Of a DNA stretch of 43,267 nt, positions 453-25,440 are shown piece by piece. The notes beneath the pieces were generated by a model that had not been told where the DNA came from, did not search any database, and saw only the letters and a program-made list of their open reading frames with translations. The position numbers and the translations under genes are program-made. Source of the stretch: Phascolarctobacterium sp. (GTDB lineage: Bacteria; Bacillota; Negativicutes; Acidaminococcales; Acidaminococcaceae); the NCBI GenBank assembly GCA_017467905.1, contig JAFUKD010000038.1, forward strand, positions 1 to 43,267. Direction: 5' to 3'. Positions within the stretch are counted from its first letter, which is position 1, and each line of letters begins with the position of its first letter.

Positions 453-1760
453 TTATTCCCACTCGATAGTTGCAGAAGGTTTCGGGCTCATATCATAGCA
501 AACACGGTTAACATTTTTAACCTCGTTCAAGATACGGTCGGTAATCTTCAGCAGGATGGGCCAATCAAGCTGTTCGATGGTTGCAGTCATTGCATCAACA
601 GTGTTTACGGCGCGAATGATTACAGGCCATTCGAAGGAACGAGCGTTGTCGCGCACGCCTACAGATTTGAAATCAGGAACGATGGTGAAATATTGCCATA
701 CCTTTTTGTCCAAGCCTGCCTTAGCAAATTCTTCGCGCAAAATAGCATCAGCTTCGCGCACTGCTTCCAAACGGTCACGAGTAATTGCACCAAGGCAACG
801 AACACCAAGACCAGGACCGGGGAACGGTTGACGATAAACCATATGGTCAGGCAAGCCAAGCTCTACGCCGCAAGCACGAACCTCGTCCTTGAACAATTGG
901 CGCAGGGGTTCAACCAGTTCAAATTGCAGGTCTTCCGGCAAACCGCCAACATTGTGGTGAGATTTAACAACTTTAGCAGTTTTGGTACCGCTTTCTGCGA
1001 TATCAGGATAAATGGTGCCTTGACCAAGGAAGTCAACACCTTCAACTTTACGAGCTTCTTCTTCGAATACACGAATGAACTCTTCACCGATGATTTTACG
1101 TTTTTGTTCAGGGTCAGCAACATTTTCCAGCTTGGTCAGGAAGCGTTCAGTTGCGTCAACATAAACTAAGTTAGCATTTAATTGGTTTTTGAATACTTCT
1201 ACTACGCTTTCAGATTCACCTTTGCGCATCAAGCCATGGTTTACGTGTACGCAAATCAGGTTATCGCCAATAGCTTTCAACAAGAGCGCAGCAACTACGG
1301 AGCTGTCAACACCACCGGACAAAGCCAACAGCACTTTTTTATCGCCAACTTGTTTTTTAACCAATTCAATTTGGTCATGAACAAAGTTAGCCATATTCCA
1401 GTTAGCTTCAGCCTTACAGGTTTCAAACACAAAATCTTTCAAAGCAGCTTTAATGCCTTCTACATCATTAGCAAATTGCGGCAGTTTAACTTCACACAGA
1501 GCTTTGTCGTGACCTGCAGCAATTACAGGAATGCCTGCTTCATAGATTTCAGGCAAAACATCAATAGCAACGCCATCAACAATATTGTTCGGACCACCGT
1601 TGATTACGATACCTTTTACGTTGGGCAGTGCTTTCAGTTCATCTACAGTAATGTCGTGGGGATAGATTTCGCTATAAACACCCAAGGCGCGAATAGCTCT
1701 TGCAACGACAGTATTTTCATGGCTACCAAGGTCTAAAATAACAATCATATCTTGTTTCAT
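453..1760 (-). CDS. guaA: GMP synthase with a shortened, catalytically degenerate glutaminase domain
   Basis: GuaA makes GMP from XMP, ATP and a nitrogen donor in purine synthesis. The ATP-pyrophosphatase P-loop SGGVDSS is at residues 148-154, and the dimerisation domain ends in the canonical ATIEWE. The N-terminal class-I glutaminase domain is unusual. It keeps a Rossmann-like opening (DLGSH, then GIVINGGPNN near residue 50). Where the nucleophile-elbow motif GICYGMQ should be, it reads GIPVIAAGHDKA, so the catalytic Cys is absent, and the segment that normally carries the His/Glu pair is missing. The P-loop lies roughly 85 residues earlier than in E. coli GuaA (from memory). The start is the ATG at 1760, preceded by AGGAGG. 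The enzyme probably uses free ammonia or an unlinked amidotransferase subunit; this is inference. Confidence 0.93.
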   Translation of the reverse strand: MKQDMIVILDLGSHENTVVARAIRALGVYSEIYPHDITVDELKALPNVKGIVINGGPNNIVDGVAIDVLPEIYEAGIPVIAAGHDKALCEVKLPQFANDVEGIKAALKDFVFETCKAEANWNMANFVHDQIELVKKQVGDKKVLLALSGGVDSSVVAALLLKAIGDNLICVHVNHGLMRKGESESVVEVFKNQLNANLVYVDATERFLTKLENVADPEQKRKIIGEEFIRVFEEEARKVEGVDFLGQGTIYPDIAESGTKTAKVVKSHHNVGGLPEDLQFELVEPLRQLFKDEVRACGVELGLPDHMVYRQPFPGPGLGVRCLGAITRDRLEAVREADAILREEFAKAGLDKKVWQYFTIVPDFKSVGVRDNARSFEWPVIIRAVNTVDAMTATIEQLDWPILLKITDRILNEVKNVNRVCYDMSPKPSATIEWE

Positions 1761-1795
1761 GATTATCCTCCTCATATATTGAATACCGCTTTTTA

Positions 1796-1801
1796 AGTAT
1801 A
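1796..1801 (-). promoter_or_regulatory. Possible extended -10 promoter of guaA
   Basis: On the minus strand this reads TATACT preceded by TGA, an extended -10 pattern, about 36 bases upstream of the guaA ATG. No good -35 is seen. The leader is too short for a purine riboswitch. Confidence 0.4.
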
Positions 1802-1905
1802 TCACAAACATTTCCGCTTGTATATTTTTTTAGAAAAAATCTCCGAATAATATTTAGGCTTTAATGTAAATCGTTCAAGAAATATTTGGAAATTTTCCGT
1901 GTACG

Positions 1906-1970: not shown

Positions 1971-3611
<1,641 letters not shown>

Positions 3612-3620
3612 CTATGGTTA

Positions 3621-3911
3621 TTACTCTTCAATTACAGCAAGAATATCACGTTGATTAAGAATTAAATAATCCTTGCCATTCAATTTCATTTCGGTGCCGC
3701 TGTATTTTGCAAATACAACTTCATCACCTGCTTTAACTTCAGGTTCAACACGAGTGCCATTATCAAGCAGCTTGCCCAAGCCTACTGCCAGTACATGACC
3801 GGTTTGCGGTTTTTCCTTCGCAGCAGTATCCGGCAGGAAAATGCCACTTGCTGTTTTTTCTTCTTTGGCAACAACTTCAACAATTACGTGTTCAGCTAAC
3901 GGTTTCAACAT
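3621..3911 (-). CDS. groS: Co-chaperonin GroES (Hsp10)
   Basis: GroES forms the heptameric lid of the GroEL chamber. The 96-residue product starts [20 protein letters not shown] and contains the mobile-loop region ([17 protein letters not shown]) and the conserved [15 protein letters not shown] block. The length is normal for the family. It is the first gene of the groES-groEL operon, and the upstream sequence carries a sigma-A-like promoter overlapping a CIRCE operator, which implies HrcA control and heat-shock induction. Confidence 0.98.
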
Positions 3912-4193: not shown

Positions 4194-5150
4194 TCACCTT
4201 GCACTCTTTATAATTCTCTCGGCAAGCTCTTTAAGAGGAATCCTCTTCTCCATACTAAACTGCTGCAATTTACGGTAAGCCTCCTGCTCCGTCATACCAT
4301 ATGCCGTCATAAGGATTCCCTTAGCCCTGTCCAGAAGCTTTCTTGTTTCAAGGCTCTCCTTTAAATCTGCCAGCTCTGCATTTAATTTTTGCAGCTCCTC
4401 GTCTCGCTTACGCAGCTCCGTCACGTCCTGCAGGATAACAATGGCGCTACCGGCCTTCGCCTTAGGAACCACTGGTAGCACACGCAGGGCGAGCAGCAAG
4501 CCATTAGTAGTAAACTCCTTGCTCGCAGCAATTCCTGTATCAATAGCCTTGCCCACTACTGGCCAGTTAATTGCCAAGTGGTTGGTACGCTTGCCAAGCA
4601 GTTCACCAATGCCCATAACCTGAAACAAATGCCTTGCTTCATTATTGGCAGCAATGATGACCTTGTTGGCATCTACAACCAGCAAGCCATCCGCCGCAGT
4701 AAGGCGCTTGTAATTGGCATCCTTATCCACCGGTCTTGGCAGGTTTAAAAGCAGCTCCACTGTTTCGCGGATAATCACCTCATCCGGATCCACCGTATCA
4801 AAGCTTAAAGCTCCGTAGCATTTACCACGCACGTCACGCAAAGGGTACACCCAAAAGCTATTGAATACACCTAATTCCAGTTCACGCATGCCACGCAGGG
4901 GGATATTATTCTGCAAGGTTCGGTAAACTAAGGGTTCTTCCACCACGCGTACCTTGCGCCCTGTCAAATCAGGCTGCTCCTTTCCCCTTTGAGTCAAAGG
5001 CTGTACCTGCTTTAACACCTGCAAAAATTTCCTATCGCCATCCAATAAGTACAGCGTTACCCTGGCATGAGCAATATCCGCTGCCAATTCCAACCCTGAC
5101 AGCAAGGTTTGTAAAGTATTCTTTTGTTCCGCTGTCAAAGTGCTTAACAT
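4194..5150 (-). CDS. GAF/PAS-ANTAR RNA-binding antiterminator-type regulator
   Basis: This 318-residue protein is a likely signal-dependent transcription antiterminator. The C-terminus, roughly residues 258-312, is an ANTAR domain (TRKLLDRAKGILMTAYGMTE, then EAYRKLQQFSMEKRIPLKEL); ANTAR domains bind paired RNA hairpins and prevent termination. The N-terminal 140 residues look like a GAF-type sensor, and the middle (about 150-250) like a PAS domain (GLLVVDANKVIIAANNEARH). A coiled-coil linker (KRDEELQKLNAELADLKESL) joins PAS to ANTAR. No receiver aspartate domain or partner kinase is nearby. It is last in the tsaE-B-rimI-tsaD direction, separated from tsaD by the DnaA-box array, with GGAG before the ATG. 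The ligand and RNA targets are unknown. Confidence 0.85.
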   Translation of the reverse strand: MLSTLTAEQKNTLQTLLSGLELAADIAHARVTLYLLDGDRKFLQVLKQVQPLTQRGKEQPDLTGRKVRVVEEPLVYRTLQNNIPLRGMRELELGVFNSFWVYPLRDVRGKCYGALSFDTVDPDEVIIRETVELLLNLPRPVDKDANYKRLTAADGLLVVDANKVIIAANNEARHLFQVMGIGELLGKRTNHLAINWPVVGKAIDTGIAASKEFTTNGLLLALRVLPVVPKAKAGSAIVILQDVTELRKRDEELQKLNAELADLKESLETRKLLDRAKGILMTAYGMTEQEAYRKLQQFSMEKRIPLKELAERIIKSAR

Positions 5151-5210
5151 GTTTTCTCCTTGTTACTTTTCTGTGTCTTTTCCCCACACCAAACAGGATA
5201 ATCCACGAAC

Positions 5211-5304
5211 TTATCCACATTATCCACAAGGTTATACACAGTAATTGTGGCGATTTTGCGTTATTTCTTTTATTTTATCCACATTATCCACAGAGTTATA
5301 CACT
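5211..5304. promoter_or_regulatory. Tandem DnaA-box array between tsaD and the ANTAR gene
   Basis: Four perfect DnaA boxes TTATCCACA lie at 5211-5219, 5220-5228, 5275-5283 and 5284-5292, all on the plus strand. Each adjacent pair is followed after 3 bases by a near-match: TTATACACA at 5232-5240 and TTATACACT at 5296-5304. The two 30-base cassettes therefore repeat with a 64-base period, separated by an A/T-rich spacer. No dnaA, dnaN or rpmH lies in the window, and gene polarity does not change here, so this is more likely a DnaA-binding cluster than oriC itself. Confidence 0.85.
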
Positions 5305-5318
5305 GAATGTACTCCTGT

Positions 5319-6332
5319 TTATCCCAATTTAAGAGATGGAACAGCGTTTAAATCCAGTGGACTTTCCATACCAGCCTGATACATAAAGTAACCACGGCAA
5401 GCAATCATCACCGCATTGTCAGTACACAAAATCGGTGCAGGATGTACCAGTTCGGCTCCAACCCTGCTCACTGCCTCTGCCAAGGTTGTTTGCAAGGTTT
5501 TATTGGCAGATACACCACCGGCAAGAACGATTTTCTTCAAACCGGTGTCCTTCATGGCGCGCACTGCCTTCTGTACCAAGGCGTTCACCACTGCATACTG
5601 GAAGGAAGCCGCCACGTCTGCGCGATTGATTTCACGTTTTGCCTGCTCCTGATTGTGCAGGTAGTTGATAACCGCAGATTTCACACCGCTAAAGCTAAAT
5701 TCATAAGGGGCATCTAATTTTGCCACAGGAAATTCAATAGCGTGTGGGTTACCGCCTAAAGCAAGCCTTTCTATTTCCGGTCCACCGGGATAGGGCAAGC
5801 CCATAACTCTGGCAATTTTATCGAAGGCTTCCCCCGCGGCATCGTCGCGAGTTTGTCCCAGCATTTCAAAGCTATTGTAACCTGTTACTTTAAGAAGCGC
5901 CGTATGCCCGCCACTTACAACCAGCGCCATAAAGGGAGGCTCCAATTCAGGGTCAGTAAGGAAATTAGCGAAAACATGTCCTTCCAAGTGGTTAACGCCA
6001 ATCAAAGGCTTATCCGTAGCCCACGCCAAGGATTTCGCCGCAGAAAGCCCCACCAAAAGAGCCCCCACCAAGCCCGGTCCATAGGTTACAGCCACAGCAT
6101 CAATATCTTCTAAAGAAACATTAGCCTGCTGTAAGGCTTCGTCAATAACGGGCATAATGTTTTCGATATGCTTACGGGAAGCAATCTCCGGCACTACGCC
6201 ACCAAATTTACGGTGAATAACAATCTGCGAGGAGATGATGTTACTCAAAACCTCACGTCCGTTTTTCACCACTGCTGCAGCTGTTTCATCACAGCTGCTT
6301 TCAATTCCTAAAATATATACATCTTTACTCAT
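5319..6332 (-). CDS. tsaD: tRNA N6-threonylcarbamoyladenosine transferase TsaD
   Basis: TsaD (Kae1/YgjD family) transfers the threonylcarbamoyl group to A37 of ANN-decoding tRNAs, completing the t6A modification. The 337-residue product opens with [16 protein letters not shown]. It carries the metal-binding HxxxH motif (HLEGH, residues 115-119), the nucleotide-binding VSGGHT segment and the late LAGGVSANK motif. It closes a cluster of tsaE, tsaB, rimI and tsaD on the minus strand, 13 bases after rimI, so the TsaB-TsaD-TsaE machinery is largely encoded together. The carbamoyl-AMP synthase TsaC is not in the window. Confidence 0.98.
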
Positions 6333-23295: not shown

Positions 23296-23415
23296 AAACG
23301 CGTCAGAAGTGCCAGATAACAAGGCGGAGAAAAATTGTACCGCGAAGGCGTACTTGAAGTACGTCGAGCAAGCAATTTTTCGACAACACAGTTAGATGGT
23401 GCTTATCACGCGTTT
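23296..23415 (-). repeat. Dispersed palindromic 3' element, copy R3 (end of glmS)
   Basis: This 120-bp element has a central GCGTACTTGAAGTACGTC and arms sharing AAAAATTG/CAATTTTT. The outermost AAACGCGT and ACGCGTTT are perfectly complementary and unlike those of the other copies. Two bases of the glmS TAA stop fall inside the stem. On the minus strand the far end reads GACGCGTTTTGG. Confidence 0.82.
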
Positions 23416-25243
23416 ACTCAACGGTAACGGACTTCGCCAAATTCCTCGGCTTATCCACATCACACCCTCTAGTCAGCGCCGCATAATAGGACAACAGCTG
23501 TAAGGGTAATACTGCCAAAAGCGGTGCGTGGTATTTACCGGTTTTAGGAATATAGATTACATGGTCTGCATATTTGGCAAGGGAAGTATCGCCTTCAAAG
23601 CCAATAGCTATTACTACCGCTTCACGAGCCTTAACCTCTTGCAGGTTGCTTACGGTTTTGTCGTAAACGTCCTCTTGAGTAGCCAGTACGATTACAGGCA
23701 CGCCGGAAACGATAAGTGCTAAAGTGCCATGCTTTAATTCGCCAGCCGCATAAGCCTCTGCGTGGATGTAAGAGATTTCTTTCAGCTTGAGCGCACCCTC
23801 CAAAGCTACAGCGTAGTCAAGGCTGCGACCGAGGAAGAAGGCATCTTCACAGCTACCATATTCGCGAGCGAACACTTTAATTTGGTCAACATTATCCAAC
23901 ATTTTATGGATTTGTTCCGGAATGGAAGCCAAACCGCCAACTAATTCTTTAGCATAAGCCTCGTCCAAGCTGCCACGCAAACGTCCAACGTAAATAGCAA
24001 GCATCAGCATTGCCAAAAGCTGGGTAGTGTATGCCTTGGTAGAAGCAACTGCAATTTCAGGACCTGCGTAGGTATAAACAACCTGGTCCGCCTCGCGAGC
24101 GATAGAAGAGCCAACCACATTAGTTACGCCCAAGGTTCTTGCACCAAGGCGTTTAGCTTCGCGCAGTGCAGCCAGGGTATCGCTGGTTTCACCAGATTGG
24201 CTGATAACAATGCACAAGCTATTACCATCAACCAAAGGACTGCGATAACGGAACTCACTGGCAATATCAACCTCTACGGGGACGCGAGCCAGCTGCTCCA
24301 GATAATATTTGCCAACGATGCCTGCGTGGTAAGCAGTACCGCAAGCTACGATAAAGATTTTATTGATGCCCTGCAATTCTTCGGAAGTCCAGTTCAGTTC
24401 CGGGAAGGTGATGGTCTTTTCTTCCGCATTCACGCGACTGGTCATAGTATCGCGCATTGCCTTGGGCTGTTCGTAAATTTCTTTGAGCATGAAATGTTCA
24501 AAGCCGCCCTTTTCCGCAGCTTCTGCATTCCAATTTACTTCAAACACTTTCTTGTTAATGGGAGTGCCGTTAATGTCCTGTACCCACACGCCGTCTTTAG
24601 TTACAGTAGCAATTTCGCCGTCGCTCATAATAAAAGTGCGGCGAGTATGGTTGATGATTGCCGGAATATCGGAAGCGATAAAGTTTTCTCCCTCACCCAA
24701 GCCAATAACCAAGGGGTTATCCTTTTTGGTGCAGATAATTTTATCCTGTTCTGCCTCGCACATGAATACCAAGGAATAAGAGCCTTTTATTTCATGAAGA
24801 ACTTTTTTAACAGTACTTTCAAAATCACCGTCAAAAAGCTCTGCCATCAGGTGAGCAACAACCTCGGTATCAGTGTCAGAAGTAAACTCTATACCTTTAG
24901 CCATCAATTTTTCTTTAATTGCCAGATAGTTTTCGATAATACCATTATGTACTACAACAAACTTACCACTGCCATCAGTATGGGGGTGGCTGTTACGGTC
25001 AGACGGACGACCATGAGTTGCCCAACGAGTATGACCAATACCAACAGTGCTTTCCGGCATATTGCTCTCTAATTTTTGACGCAGCGCGTCCAAACGACCA
25101 ACGCATTTTTCAACACGCACTTGACCTTTTTCCAATACAGCAATACCTGCGGAGTCATAACCACGGTATTCAAGCTTGCTCATTCCATCAAGCAGAAAGG
25201 GCGCAGCCTGTTTGGTGCCAATATAACCAACGATACCACACAT
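23414..25243 (-). CDS. glmS: Glutamine-fructose-6-phosphate aminotransferase (isomerizing)
   Basis: GlmS makes glucosamine-6-phosphate from fructose-6-phosphate and glutamine, the entry step to UDP-GlcNAc for peptidoglycan and LPS. The 609-residue product has the N-terminal glutaminase (MCGIVGYIG, with Cys2 the nucleophile after Met removal; GIGHTRWATHG; HNGIIEN) and two SIS sugar-binding domains (ACGTAYHAG; SQSGETSDTLAALREAK), ending CDVDKPRNLAKSVTVE. It lies downstream of glmM and is preceded by a promoter and a glmS ribozyme, so it should be repressed by its own product. Confidence 0.99.
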   Translation of the reverse strand: MCGIVGYIGTKQAAPFLLDGMSKLEYRGYDSAGIAVLEKGQVRVEKCVGRLDALRQKLESNMPESTVGIGHTRWATHGRPSDRNSHPHTDGSGKFVVVHNGIIENYLAIKEKLMAKGIEFTSDTDTEVVAHLMAELFDGDFESTVKKVLHEIKGSYSLVFMCEAEQDKIICTKKDNPLVIGLGEGENFIASDIPAIINHTRRTFIMSDGEIATVTKDGVWVQDINGTPINKKVFEVNWNAEAAEKGGFEHFMLKEIYEQPKAMRDTMTSRVNAEEKTITFPELNWTSEELQGINKIFIVACGTAYHAGIVGKYYLEQLARVPVEVDIASEFRYRSPLVDGNSLCIVISQSGETSDTLAALREAKRLGARTLGVTNVVGSSIAREADQVVYTYAGPEIAVASTKAYTTQLLAMLMLAIYVGRLRGSLDEAYAKELVGGLASIPEQIHKMLDNVDQIKVFAREYGSCEDAFFLGRSLDYAVALEGALKLKEISYIHAEAYAAGELKHGTLALIVSGVPVIVLATQEDVYDKTVSNLQEVKAREAVVIAIGFEGDTSLAKYADHVIYIPKTGKYHAPLLAVLPLQLLSYYAALTRGCDVDKPRNLAKSVTVE

Positions 25244-25285
25244 TAGATAGTATCCTCCTTAAATTTATTCGCCGTTCTGCTACTG

Positions 25286-25416
25286 AAATTTTCTCTCCTC
25301 CGTTACCGAAGGGCTTTGTATTCAGCTTACGGTTTGCAGCTAACCGAGAGGCATCCGCTGACTAATCGACAACCTCTTTCCTCGTCCACCGCTTGTACAA
25401 AGCGGTACATGCGCTA
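25286..25416 (-). ncRNA. glmS self-cleaving ribozyme/riboswitch
   Basis: The glmS leader (minus strand) carries the glmS ribozyme landmarks in order: the cleavage-site segment TTTAGCGC, the P2 hairpin ACCGCTTTGTACAAGCGGT, GACGAGG, GAGGTTGTCGA, CAGCGGATGCCTCTCGG, the P3.1-like TAGCTGCAAACCGTAAGCT, AATACAAAGCC and a closing GGAGGAGAGAAA. Cleavage is predicted between 25416 and 25415, just before AGCGC. Glucosamine-6-phosphate is the cofactor, and cleavage destabilises the mRNA. The 301-base gap between glmM and glmS is filled by this element, a hairpin and a promoter. Confidence 0.95.
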
Positions 25417-25440
25417 AACCACAAGGTGTTTTAAACACGC

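Follow-up and report, generated by a model that had tools for sequence, protein, structure and literature searches.

A DnaA-box cluster at the 3′ end of tsaD in Phascolarctobacterium recurs across Bacillota and may restrain replication initiation

Immediately 3′ of tsaD (gcp), a Phascolarctobacterium-like genome carries six DnaA boxes that all point the same way, and box clusters recur at this gene end across Bacillota while the neighboring gene changes. We consider the tsaD cluster to be, more likely than not, an inherited DnaA-binding cluster outside the origin that sequesters DnaA, perhaps mainly ATP-DnaA, and so restrains initiation. The role of such extra-origin clusters in the replication timing of Bacillota is unsettled, the strong effect in Bacillus subtilis needing the removal of six of them, and the breadth of the tsaD cluster marks which one deserves the first test. 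It also provides a testable rule, namely that the boxes track tsaD and not the next gene.

Results

Anatomy of the cluster

The window, that is, the whole stretch of 43,267 nucleotides analyzed here, is contig C32 of a Phascolarctobacterium-like genome of 1.84 Mb in 41 contigs, the closest relatives with a name being Phascolarctobacterium MAGs of roe deer gut origin (Acidaminococcaceae, Negativicutes). The original prediction had described four perfect boxes and two variants organized in two 30-base units with a 64-base period, each unit being an abutting pair (start-to-start spacing of 9) followed by a third box 12 bases later, and this was borne out by the box coordinates (Table 1). The flanking genes were correctly said to be co-directional, with tsaD and the ANTAR gene both on the minus strand, and the gene calls of the window agreed that origin genes are absent nearby. 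Seen from tsaD, the boxes start 14 bp beyond its stop codon, and the degenerate box ahead of cassette 1 produces a box-3nt-box-box layout like that seen across the phylum.

Table 1. Coordinates of the DnaA boxes, their locus, and other features of the window.
Feature	Position	Strand	Remarks
guaA reading frame	453..1811	-	452 aa
groEL	1971..3596	-	Flank, beyond groES
groES	3621..3911	-	Flank, next after the ANTAR gene
GAF(PdtaS-type)-PAS-ANTAR gene	4194..5150	-	Local downstream neighbor of the cluster
Intergenic region with cluster	5151..5318		168 bp, mostly filled by the cluster
Degenerate seventh box, TAATCCACG	5199..5207	+	12 bp ahead of cassette 1; sequence and phylum context consensus
Six-box cluster	5211..5304	+	94 bp; five TTATNCACA and one TTATACACT, one direction
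Cassette 1, TTATCCACA/TTATCCACA/agg/TTATACACA	5211..5240	+	Sequence; spacing same in relatives
Box, TTATCCACA	5211..5219	+	Sequence reading
Box, TTATCCACA	5220..5228	+	Sequence reading
Box, TTATACACA	5232..5240	+
Cassette 2, TTATCCACA/TTATCCACA/gag/TTATACACT	5275..5304	+	Sequence; spacing same in relatives
Box, TTATCCACA	5275..5283	+	Sequence reading
Box, TTATCCACA	5284..5292	+	Sequence reading
Box, TTATACACT	5296..5304	+
tsaD (gcp/ydiE)	5319..6332	-	TIGR03723, 450.7 bits; constant neighbor of the cluster across Bacillota
glmS	23414..25243
glmS ribozyme	25271..25426	-	Upstream of glmS

An Rfam search of the window returned the glmS ribozyme only, with no RNA element at the cluster. Consensus scans found no sigma-70-type promoter in positions 5000-5450 and no terminator hairpin between tsaD and the ANTAR gene, the single terminator-like match being located inside tsaD. 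Elsewhere in the window, the guaA reading frame was short, and its N-terminal amidotransferase match was limited to residues 24-97, possibly reflecting truncation or an assembly error.

Rarity in the genome and relation to the origin

Chance is excluded as the source of the repeats. The window contains seven matches to TTATNCACA, compared with 1.9 in shuffles, and none of 100 shuffles reached seven. Four of the 23 TTATCCACA matches in the genome are in the tsaD cluster, as are all three same-direction TTATNCACA pairs no more than 30 bp apart, while the reversed pattern gave zero matches genome-wide. Other clusters in this genome were sought by the same-direction pair pattern and by reading of 16 stretches, and when 311 kb surrounding the remaining TTATCCACA matches were scanned less strictly, one further strong group emerged, in the dnaA-dnaN intergenic region on contig C4. 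Equal clusters scattered over the genome, a prospect raised in the original prediction, did not appear among the same-direction pairs.

The tsaD cluster is not oriC. Specifically, dnaA is at C4:9519-10850, on a contig other than that of the cluster, and is followed by the genome's own oriC, in which abutting boxes precede DnaA-trios (TTTTCCACA/TTATCAACA/TG-TAT-TAC-TAC-TAA-TAC-GAC-TAT). GC skew shifted from -0.09 to +0.13 near dnaA on C4 and was negative in all 4-kb bins of the window, with no flip at the tsaD cluster. The longest TAN run after both pairs in the window was 1, compared with 5 in the genome's own oriC, and none of the 39 abutting pairs from the phylum had a trio run longer than 2 behind it. 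The skew flip named in the original prediction as a refutation thus did not occur at this site, and skew, the location of dnaA, and the missing trios refute the cluster as main origin. In 15 single-contig genomes with boxes, the distance between tsaD and dnaA was 10-36% of the chromosome (median 19%), the window's own genome being in 41 contigs.

Conservation within Acidaminococcaceae

Searches for the abutting pair gave matches in 27 of 59 Acidaminococcaceae genomes, mostly between tsaD and the ANTAR gene. All four species of the genus kept the two-cassette layout, as did genera g2, g3 (P. faecium), g9, g11, and g29, and box offsets from the tsaD stop codon recurred across genera at about 26, 35, 78, 90, and 99. 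The genera with recurring offsets had TsaD proteins 80-90% identical to that of the window and ANTAR proteins about 45-60% identical. A related layout was present in Anaerospora, from another Negativicutes lineage. Among the four species of the genus, divergence was 4.6% in box columns and 22% in other intergenic columns, with a circular-shift P of 0.049 that is only about 0.05 because the boxes occupy a third of the intergenic region. At the Succiniclasticum locus neither boxes nor the ANTAR gene were found, most Selenomonadaceae loci were without the cluster, and in Acidaminococcaceae loss of the cluster tended to go with loss of the ANTAR gene.

Two other placements were noted. In Acidaminococcaceae genus g13 (L013-L017), box pairs were in another intergenic region away from tsaD, possibly through relocation, and in its single-contig member G031 the site was about 270 kb from dnaA. 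Additionally, L018 and L035 had abutting box pairs beside parB/noc-like and soj-like genes (named by eye), near rsmG.

Distribution across Bacillota

TsaD was sought in an even set of Bacillota genomes with a completeness of 90% or more. These were ranked by TsaD similarity, and we read the sequence beyond tsaD in 129 of them, from 70 families, drawn from all but the most distant of the sample. These genomes are non-independent, so that families (codes assigned automatically) are the better unit, and the strict consensus used for box calls undercounts weak boxes and their clusters. The 400 bp beyond the tsaD stop codons held 228 strict boxes in 51.6 kb, as opposed to 2.8 in dinucleotide shuffles; the 2 kb that follow at these loci had 34 in 227 kb. 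Most boxes (206 of 228) were directed against tsaD ('-'), with 22 in the '+' direction. At least one box was present in 88 genomes, at least two in 69, and an abutting pair in 38. Genomes with at least two boxes came from 40 of the 70 families, and occupation of the same gene end in so many families argues for selection. The remaining 41 genomes had zero strict boxes within 400 bp which, together with the absences in Succiniclasticum and most Selenomonadaceae loci, makes the cluster dispensable.

The spacings of nearest boxes peaked at 9, 12, 21, and 42-45 bp. Beyond 15 bp, the distances between box pairs followed a phase of about 10.5-11 bp, clearest within Acidaminococcaceae, as a complex bound along one face of the DNA would require. 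Moreover, the abutting pairs had a shared context consensus (TTATyAACAG-nn-TTATCCACATTATCCACAG), which indicates common descent. In the 38 genomes chosen for having the tsaD pair, 40 of 56 abutting pairs genome-wide were at tsaD, and 24 of these genomes had none elsewhere.

We rejected a general tie of DnaA boxes to t6A genes. As a control, tsaC (ywlC, which bears a cluster in B. subtilis) had 0 boxes in 12 kb of downstream sequence from 30 genomes, and boxes upstream in one of the 30. That genome, G197 (L287), also had a convergent ABC gene behind tsaD, similar to the arrangement in B. subtilis, and the case is consistent with confinement of the ywlC cluster to a Bacillus-like lineage.

A second recurrent Bacillota DnaA-box site was seen 3′ of comFC, often before hpf. 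There, 29 strict boxes were counted in 11.6 kb downstream versus 1 in 68.7 kb elsewhere at the same loci, and 9 of 29 genomes had at least two (survey loci L347, L350, L353, L355, L357, L358, L362, L365, and L366; other abutting pairs at L331, L333, and L336-L343). The site was absent from the window's own genome (L372).

Genes downstream of tsaD

According to mechanical, ORF-based calls, the gene after tsaD in genomes with at least two boxes belonged to 19 sequence clusters, including radical SAM, Lgt, 5-formyltetrahydrofolate cyclo-ligase, LytR-CpsA-Psr, Mur ligase, NuoE-like, and IspD proteins, and outside Negativicutes the ANTAR gene was replaced by others beside most tsaD clusters. The next gene was convergent in seven of these genomes, where its promoter region must therefore lie elsewhere than at the boxes; in one such case an ABC-type ATPase gene stood where B. 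subtilis has ydiF, with eight loose boxes in the gap. The median gap after tsaD was 90 bp without boxes versus 233 bp with them. The constant element is the 3′ end of tsaD, and the boxes are independent of the next gene.

Finally, we noted that the ANTAR protein of the window has an N-terminal PdtaS-type GAF domain and that the gene after tsaD in Mitsuokella encodes a PdtaS-type histidine kinase. The comparison suggests that a kinase and an ANTAR output have been exchanged for one another at the tsaD locus.

Discussion

Proposed function

By analogy with B. subtilis, DnaA very likely binds the tsaD cluster, and we infer a role in DnaA titration. DnaA would bind the abutting boxes and spread cooperatively over both cassettes, which, with about six helical turns between them, would share one face of the DNA. 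Lacking a DnaA-trio behind its boxes, the resulting complex would be unable to open DNA. It would thus serve as a decoy and retain DnaA, probably with a preference for ATP-DnaA like that found in B. subtilis. A passing fork would duplicate the cluster part-way along the replichore, and well before termination given the distances between tsaD and dnaA, which are compatible with titration and not specific to it. Duplication would leave less free DnaA and so restrain re-initiation at oriC. In the window's own genome YabA was not found and no Hda was above the cut-off, so that passive sites could weigh more.

The tsaD cluster belongs to an old DnaA-binding station that is apparently functional and that experiments have addressed in B. 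subtilis only. A broader and tentative proposal, which we hold to be possible and short of probable, is that it represents a dedicated DnaA-control locus from the base of Bacillota, a trio-less decoy of the tandem abutting box module of the origin that has been selected at one gene end while neighbors change, and that with the comFC site it would form a fixed set of initiation-timing stations.

Other explanations center on local transcription. DnaA bound 60-155 bp upstream of the ANTAR start could repress or activate that gene in step with replication, as the original prediction allowed in suggesting that the ANTAR gene may be DnaA-responsive. The cluster is indeed upstream of this gene, most Acidaminococcaceae with the gene have the cluster while those without it lack the cluster, and in B. 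subtilis DnaA does regulate transcription at certain regions of this type (PMC4447404). However, boxes and downstream gene separate repeatedly across the phylum, the boxes keeping to tsaD even between convergent genes, which weakens the case for local control; moreover, L068 and L069 have the ANTAR gene without boxes, Mitsuokella has its related kinase gene after tsaD without boxes, and the promoter scan around the cluster was empty. We therefore regard such an operator as unlikely, and control of the ANTAR gene as possible only as a local extra. Alternatively, the cluster could serve the tsaB-rimI-tsaD operon, with boxes that face the operon and DnaA at its 3′ end as a roadblock, by which transcription would be stopped or dampened. 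That tsaD is the only constant neighbor, that the boxes are predominantly directed against it, and that no terminator hairpin was found between it and the ANTAR gene would all fit, but the number and spacing of boxes go beyond the needs of a roadblock, and the helical phasing suggests a cooperative complex. We know of no DnaA-dependent terminator of this kind, and think the explanation quite improbable.

The remaining possibilities have far less in their favor. The repeats, at which DnaA binding is a prediction, might in principle be sites for another protein, or chance; the former is countered by the match to the DnaA consensus TTATNCACA (PMC4447404) and by DnaA binding in vitro to the corresponding B. 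subtilis region, the latter by the shuffle, genome-wide, and phylum counts, and we give the two together very little credence. An origin or back-up origin is scarcely conceivable. The cluster has a box density equal to that of oriC and its abutting pairs resemble the basal unwinding module of the genome's own oriC, but dnaA with flanking boxes, trios, and the skew flip are all on C4, the window has no flip and its box pairs have no trio behind them, and single-contig relatives with boxes have the site 10-36% of the chromosome from dnaA. Sequestration of DnaA at an inherited extra-origin cluster is the explanation we prefer.

Comparison with known systems

The suggestion that the cluster is comparable to datA or DARS holds as a functional analogy only, with location and arrangement differing. 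Like Escherichia coli datA, which is thought to lower active DnaA, it is an extra-origin box cluster; unlike datA, which is defined biochemically by IHF-dependent hydrolysis of ATP-DnaA, it is at tsaD, a location not shared, as no boxes were found at the 3′ end of E. coli tsaD. It resembles DARS1 and DARS2 in being a compact extra-origin group of DnaA boxes, but the boxes in DARS cores are inverted relative to one another, whereas all six boxes here point the same way on the plus strand. The abutting tandem pair is like that of the Bacillota basal unwinding module, including TTTTCCACA/TTATCAACA of the genome's own oriC, although the tsaD pairs are without the DnaA-trio behind.

The comparison with the DnaA-box clusters of B. 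subtilis stood, since gcp is tsaD by established nomenclature and a strong DnaA-binding region lies downstream of it. The gcp site is said to have been proposed by Ishikawa in 2007 as conserved among Bacillus species, and in the literature covered by our partial search we found no description of tsaD-linked clusters outside Bacillus or of their breadth. Among the regions of B. subtilis that bind DnaA in vitro, the one listed as 'downstream of gcp; downstream of ydiF' ranks with the strongest (Smith and Grossman 2015, PMC4447404). This gcp-ydiF cluster (region 4, 10 sites) has a Kd of 0.15 uM for ATP-DnaA and 0.33 uM with ADP, and a 16-fold ATP preference at 55 nM (PMC4447404). It counts among the extra-origin regions that bind DnaA (Okumura 2012, as cited in PMC5295017), and B. 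subtilis without six extra-origin clusters initiates early, with partial cure when one cluster is restored (PMC5295017, PMC13220808). The next gene is co-directional here (ANTAR) and convergent in B. subtilis (ydiF), and the regular two-cassette layout with its 64-bp period is found here, DnaA binding and early initiation upon removal being known for B. subtilis only. The distance of the site from the origin is about 15% of the chromosome in B. subtilis, and among sampled relatives that carry boxes it ranges over 10-36%. In both, many boxes are located immediately 3′ of tsaD and outside oriC, and the tsaD cluster is, as read from its sequence, the counterpart of the gcp-ydiF cluster.
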